NCBI GenBank assembly: GCA_003246205.1
Contig: QKBC01000004.1
Coordinates: 62,001 to 126,000 of the forward strand
From: Flavobacterium haoranii
GTDB taxonomy: Bacteria > Bacteroidota > Bacteroidia > Flavobacteriales > Flavobacteriaceae
Length of the DNA stretch: 64,000 nucleotides
Direction of reading: 5' to 3'
The translations under genes and the position numbers were made by a program. This document shows, one piece after another, positions 1,861-23,909 of this stretch. Positions within the stretch are counted from its first letter, which is position 1. Every line of letters starts with the position of its first letter. Under the pieces are notes generated by a model. It was not told the DNA's origin. It ran no database searches and saw nothing but the letters and a program-made list of their open reading frames with translations.

Positions 1861-1891
1861 AAAACAAAAAGTCCCGAAAGGATTTCGGGAC
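1861..1891 (-). terminator. Rho-independent terminator at the end of element copy 1
   Basis: GTCCCGAAA/TTTCGGGAC stem followed by a T-rich tract on the minus strand. Confidence 0.7.
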
Positions 1892-1997
1892 AAAATGTTC
1901 TTGATAAGAAATAAAATTACTGCTATTAACCGTAACAAATATACGACTGATACAGCCTAACTCGGATACAGAAAAAATGTATATTTTGTTAAAGTTT
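1863..1997 (-). repeat. Copy 1 of a conserved two-copy intergenic element, putative sRNA gene
   Basis: About 135 bp closely matches 23774-23909. On the minus strand it contains TATATTTG, an invariant block GGTTAATAGCAGTAATTTTATTTCTTATCAAGAACATTT, then hairpin GTCCCGAAA-TCC-TTTCGGGAC and TTTTTGTTTT. Confidence 0.75.
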
Positions 1998-23771: not shown

Positions 23772-23802
23772 TAAACAAAAAGTCCCGAGTAGAGTTCGGG
23801 AC
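23772..23802 (-). terminator. Rho-independent terminator at the end of element copy 2
   Basis: GTCCCGA-ACTCTAC-TCGGGAC followed by TTTTTGTTT on the minus strand. Confidence 0.7.
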
Positions 23803-23909
23803 TAAATGTTCTTGATAAGAAATAAAATTACTGCTATTAACCTGTAACAAATATACAATCTATAAAGTCTAAGTCGGATACAGGAAAAATGTACATTTTG
23901 TTAAAGTTT
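23774..23909 (-). repeat. Copy 2 of the conserved intergenic element, putative sRNA gene
   Basis: Same architecture as 1863-1997: minus-strand TATATTTG, the same invariant 39-nt block, hairpin GTCCCGA/TCGGGAC then T-tract; hairpin arms kept while the loop differs. Confidence 0.75.

Follow-up and report, generated by a model that had tools for sequence, protein, structure and literature searches.

We conclude that the 135-bp element present twice in the 64,000 nucleotides of Flavobacterium haoranii DNA analyzed here (the window) very probably belongs to a real family of small RNAs (sRNAs). The family and its common promoter are well supported by sequence comparison: approximately 40 units in ten species keep the same 5' seed, promoter spacing, hairpin, and terminator, in line with the original prediction of sRNA genes that each carry a promoter and a terminator. 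The control box in front of the sRNA genes also precedes an operon encoding a histidine kinase, a response regulator, and small precursor proteins. On balance, we favor a reading in which this two-component system drives a multicopy family of trans-acting sRNAs resembling Qrr and FopS, with the peptides as probable ligands and an mRNA encoded next to recX among the targets.

Anatomy of the two copies in the window

The two copies are at positions 1863-1997 and 23774-23909, both on the minus strand as predicted, and are 89% identical across the full 135 nt. Copy 1 is flanked by the gene for an M13 peptidase and, in convergent orientation, that for an EamA transporter; copy 2 is flanked by hemB and dprA. 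The core pattern matches twice in the window, and shuffled sequences give an expectation of 0. Read along the minus strand, each copy consists of TTTAACAAAATRTACA-N7-TGTATC, a C plus 20 nt, TATATTTG, 4-5 nt, GGTTAATAGCAGTAATTTTATTTCTTATCAAGAACA, and a terminator. The assembly from which the window comes is 2.42 Mb and 75% complete, and another copy is found in the MAG "Flavobacteriaceae bacterium MY14.004".

Each putative promoter combines a regulator-like box with a -7 box. In copy 1, the regulator-like box TTTAACAAAATATACATTTTTTCTGTATC (1965..1993), an inverted repeat TACA-N7-TGTA plus TTTAACAA, matches the regulon box exactly. It is followed after 21 nt by TATATTTG (1936..1943), which fits TAnnTTTG as originally proposed. 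In copy 2, the regulator-like box TTTAACAAAATGTACATTTTTCCTGTATC (23877..23905) is likewise an exact match, and TATATTTG (23848..23855) matches the promoter pattern. The absence of a TTG at -33 was noted correctly; TGTATCC is there instead. The upstream block had also been called a conserved part of the RNA element. It is conserved ("TGTATCCGA" is the right half of the control box), but it is not specific to the RNA, since the 29-nt box recurs elsewhere.

In F. psychrophilum, the TAnnTTTG box sits at -12 to -5 (PMC9723704). This spacing places the predicted +1 of copy 1 at the first G of GGTTAAT (1931) and that of copy 2 one base earlier (23843 or 23842). With such a start, the GG-starting stretch becomes the 5' end of an RNA of approximately 66 nt, counted to the end of the T-tract, and not of the 75-85 nt first suggested. 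The RNA would begin with the seed (GGTTAATAGCAGTAATTTT at 1913..1931 in copy 1; 23824..23842 in copy 2), which is invariant across the copies of the closest genomes and exact in further relatives. A small hairpin, UUCUU-AUC-AAGAA, follows in both copies (1898..1910 and 23809..23821). The terminator of copy 1 (1866..1891) is a hairpin at 1871-1891 (z -3.6) with a T-tract at 1866-1870; that of copy 2, again a hairpin plus T-tract, is at 23777..23802, and pairing is kept where the stem varies. The predicted fold leaves the 5' end mostly unpaired, followed by the weak, U-rich hairpin and the strong terminator. Core, hairpin, and T-tract were found as first described, although invariance of the whole 39-nt core did not hold up: the 5' 15-19 nt are the most constrained, and the 3' half, including the small hairpin stem, is replaced in distant members.

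A multicopy family and its control box in Flavobacterium

The exact 19-nt seed is present in 10 of 394 Flavobacterium genomes, and a reversed control is near zero. A search with the 27-nt core (up to 3 mismatches) found matches in four of the 397 genus members and, among 300 genomes sampled from the family, in the window's own genome and no other. The four closest genomes, whose 15 copies all have the seed unchanged, contain two units (G000), ten (G470), two in tandem (G433), and one (G420). The G470 genome is a single complete contig, and its ten copies include two with a one-base insertion and one that is divergent; the other seed-bearing genomes have mostly 2-7 copies. The extent of two copies given in the original prediction holds for the window, and relatives carry many more. 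An independent promoter, a short non-coding unit, and an intrinsic terminator were found in approximately 40 units, and several copies with the invariant seed occur in one genome, as in a paralogous multicopy family.

A covariance model search led to tandem arrays in distant species (G577, G614, G532, G688, and G448), with a unit period of mostly 150-165 bp. The five arrays adjoin a gene for an EnvC-like M23 peptidase, with mfd on the opposite side where the contig extends that far. Copies in G470 are also at the envC-like–mfd site, and mfd adjoins the copies in G433. Each unit of an array is complete in itself, with box, spacing, TAnnTTTG, seed, hairpin, and terminator. Different seeds in some of these units were considered and mostly rejected: (A/G)GTTAATAGCAGTAA, or a variant that differs from it by one or two bases, is retained in nearly all of them. 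Across the family, the small hairpin appears as UUCUU/AAGAA, UUUUCU/AGAAAA, or UUUCC/GGAAA. Terminator stems differ between members with pairing kept, although such covariation is expected of any terminator and alone is no proof of function. We discarded many covariance model hits at E values of 1e-5 to 1e-2, which were plain terminators lacking the seed. Rfam gave no match for the window, and copy 1 on its own had none even with E values up to 1; an array gave sub-threshold hits only, the best being anti-hemB (29.4 vs 49.5 bits). The seed is absent from IMG/VR, which was searched as a test of phage carriage, and the open-licence literature yielded no description of the sRNA family, the ..KKD precursors, or the TPR kinase system.

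Gene order around the copies varies between genomes. The 22-kb block that runs from the M13 peptidase gene to dprA also has sRNA copies at both ends in G470, where it is located elsewhere. In the same genome, hemB and a 272-aa gene, which is near copy 1 in the window, lie on either side of a lipoprotein/DUF6705 operon that has sRNA copies at its borders. The rearrangement breakpoints coincide with sRNA genes.

We interpret the conserved upstream block as a regulon site of the kind that transcription factors bind. Its consensus is TTTAACAA-N6-CA-N7-TGTATC, 20-21 nt before TAnnTTTG. The window's genome contains eight sites for the 29-nt box with up to 3 mismatches, five of them exact (reversed control, 0), and the 64-kb window contains two exact sites (0 in shuffles); G470 has 18 sites. 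Among 29 distinct sites from four genomes, 24 have TAnnTTTG 20 or 21 nt beyond the box, in front of RNA and protein genes alike; one of the remaining sites has it at 6 nt, and four are without a perfect -7 box. Behind the box are protein genes for lipoproteins and for a reprolysin-type protease with a T9SS tail, as well as operons that combine a 532-aa lipoprotein with DUF6705-like proteins, and G532 has two sites (2 mismatches) ahead of grasp-with-spasm ATP-grasp graspetide (RiPP) operons. The promoter pattern (up to 1 mismatch) is restricted to seed-bearing genomes (9 of 9 sampled). G661 has two exact boxes, no seed, and a regulator of only 45% identity; one of its boxes precedes an operon that starts with iron-type ABC permease-like and ATPase-like genes. 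G470 also has repeated operons of a lipoprotein of approximately 530 aa (no Pfam match) and DUF6705-like proteins, each with a box, beside sRNA copies.

The kinase/regulator operon, its precursors, and a candidate target

In the four closest species, the box lies before or inside an operon for small precursors, a TPR histidine kinase, a NarL/RcsB-type regulator, and a membrane protein of approximately 75 aa. From its N-terminus, the kinase has a lipobox-like segment and TPR repeats, and a single transmembrane segment then leads to the cytoplasmic HisKA_3/HATPase part, an order that predicts a TPR part outside the cytoplasm. The box is upstream of the operon in 8 of 8 seed-bearing genomes tested and in G331, which has no seed, and is absent in G311 and G365. 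With up to 3 mismatches, it is within 300 bp upstream of precursor genes in 9 of 11 operons (shuffled mean 0.14, maximum 2). Among regulator relatives in 80 genomes, the ten closest (63-95% identity) are exactly those of the 10 seed-bearing genomes. Regulators without seed or box occur in G311 (67%) and G365 (62%), and thus the association of the top ten may partly reflect kinship. The pattern of boxes fits autoregulation, with the sRNAs recruited into the regulon in part of the genus. Operon position and co-occurrence point to this regulator, and we think it likely that the TPR kinase/NarL-type two-component system controls the sRNAs.

The operons encode 2 to 8 small precursors, most with a lipoprotein-type signal (..SCTTD..). 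Nearly all precursor C-termini are ..DPIIIPKKD, ..DPIVKPKRD, or ..PIIIIKRD-like, with ends common as P..K.D or ..PII.KKD. For example, G577 has seven near-identical copies of a 57-aa precursor, plus a 60-aa relative. Searches of Pfam and NCBIfam gave nothing above cut-off for the precursors tested. Flavobacterium genomes that lack the sRNA also have pairs or tandem arrays of 53-88-aa precursors with ..PII.KKD/KRD ends ahead of a TPR kinase. Such precursors, amplified and with constant ends next to a sensor, look like those of pheromones, and they would presumably be secreted, cut, and sensed. The gene arrangement, with precursor genes beside a sensor and a regulator and with the box upstream, would suit peptide quorum sensing. 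We put forward peptide signaling, with the peptides as the signals, tentatively. It is an equally tentative suggestion that this could be a form of peptide quorum sensing in Bacteroidota, in which secreted ..PII.KKD arrays are sensed by an extracytoplasmic TPR kinase and the NarL-type regulator activates tandem Qrr-like sRNAs, secreted proteases, and graspetide operons.

We postulate that the element is the gene for an sRNA of approximately 66 nt that acts in trans, one of a multicopy, partly tandem paralogous family. Each sRNA promoter would be activated by the NarL-type regulator bound to TTTAACAA-N6-CA-N7-TGTATC just upstream of TAnnTTTG. The kinase and regulator, encoded together with small, presumably secreted precursors (..PII.KKD C-terminus) that are probably the kinase's ligands, would also activate their own operon. 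The 5' end of the RNA (GGUUAAUAGCAGUAAUUUU) would be the seed; it may pair with translation start regions and block initiation, most likely including that of the giant secreted-protein mRNA adjacent to recX.

The most consistent match to the seed complement is at the start codon of this recX-adjacent gene, which encodes a secreted protein of 1350-1590 aa (with LTD and Ig-like domains in G000). Hybrid energies of the 36-nt core with this start are -32.5 kcal/mol in G420, -30.3 in G433, -16.5 in G000, and -15.9 in G470. The pairing ranks 1-2 of 327 starts in G420 and G433 and 14 of 327 in the window's own genome, and no shuffled core was as good (0 of 100 in each of four genomes). Because the gene was picked by its complementarity to the seed, the excess in G000 and G470 carries little weight; the extension of the pairing into the 5' UTR seen in G420 and G433 counts for more. 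We regard the recX-adjacent mRNA, a candidate from the comparison of the four closest species, as a possible target, with the odds somewhat against it. The DNA for the signal peptide of this gene is very similar in the four species, and the mature N-terminus appears unrelated. A search of the four genomes for long complements of either half of the core gave scattered, near-control matches except for the recX-adjacent gene. Two broader ideas were rejected. The antisense of the seed reads as K-L-L-L-L-T codons, yet Sec-type starts were not bound significantly better (p 0.25; 3 of 40 shuffles), and most mRNAs of the regulon did no better as targets than shuffled controls.

Could the repeat be, in place of a functional RNA gene, a mobile or recombinational unit such as a MITE-like element or the boundary of a cassette? 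In favor of this reading, directly oriented copies bracket lipoprotein/DUF6705 operons in G470, and the DNA next to both copies in the window is rearranged, with the breaks at the copies. We consider such an element very improbable. Each unit keeps promoter spacing, seed, and terminator in ten species while the spacers change, the arrays occupy one conserved genomic site, and the box alone, at the same spacing, precedes unrelated protein genes. The original prediction named random flanks and terminal repeats as signs of a MITE-like repeat; we found orthologous flanks in two species, a fixed promoter architecture, and, when looked for, no terminal inverted repeats. A functional RNA could instead titrate a protein without base pairing, as its multiple copies and strongly conserved, unpaired 5' end would allow; no long complementary target is common to all genomes. 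We view titration as unlikely, given the long pairing that spans a start codon in two species and the pairing of the Bacteroides FopS family via its 5' end (PMC11697453).

A closer competitor to our preferred reading keeps the same sRNAs and box and assigns them to another transcription factor. The kinase/regulator operon would then be one more target, and the precursors would be ordinary envelope proteins. Regulators of 62-67% identity do occur without the box, and the box also precedes reprolysin, DUF6705-type, lipoprotein, and graspetide operons. Against this, the box precedes the kinase/regulator operon in every seed-bearing genome tested and in G331, and autoregulation is typical of a cognate regulator. 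We judge this alternative to be the less probable one, although it deserves more weight than titration does.

Relation to known systems

To our knowledge, there are few descriptions of peptide-based cell-cell signaling in Bacteroidota, and most sRNA circuits known from that phylum are those of Bacteroides. The nearest circuit is that of the Qrr sRNAs of Vibrio, which are multicopy and near-identical and whose promoters answer to one response regulator with cell-cell signaling. Qrr promoters depend on sigma-54 and LuxO, and Qrr RNAs are bound by Hfq. In contrast, the Flavobacterium family has a primary-sigma TAnnTTTG box, probably a NarL-type regulator, and only presumptive signaling. The small, presumably secreted precursors with conserved C-termini beside a TPR-containing sensor are reminiscent of the RRNPP systems of Gram-positive bacteria. 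However, RRNPP sensors are cytoplasmic, whereas the TPR part in Flavobacterium is predicted to be outside the cytoplasm and is fused to a histidine kinase.

Compared by function and architecture only, the nearest described family is FopS/GibS, also from Bacteroidota and also composed of paralogous short RNAs with a 5' seed. In Bacteroides thetaiotaomicron, it has 14 paralogous copies of approximately 65-70 nt with a conserved 5' seed and a variable downstream part, and FopS blocks translation by pairing near the start codons of outer-membrane protein mRNAs (PMC11697453). FopS/GibS was described in Bacteroidaceae, and FopS RNAs are transcribed from the canonical promoter with no described activator box (PMC11697453), whereas the Flavobacterium family has an activator-like box common to its copies, tandem arrays, and a kinase/regulator/peptide operon with the same box. 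Rfp18 of F. psychrophilum is an sRNA linked to the expression of secreted proteins (proteases); it is reported to be widely conserved in the genus, to be strongly folded, and to pair via its third stem-loop (PMC9723704). By these descriptions, the present family, found in approximately 2.5% of genomes and with a candidate seed at the 5' end, differs from Rfp18.

An sRNA family and a kinase with pheromone-like peptides, joined by a common box, suggest a cell-signaling circuit not previously described in Flavobacterium. Sequence alone ties the sRNA family, the control box, a specific kinase/regulator pair, and amplified candidate peptides to one another within one genus, and this link makes each step of the proposed circuit directly testable in culturable Flavobacterium.
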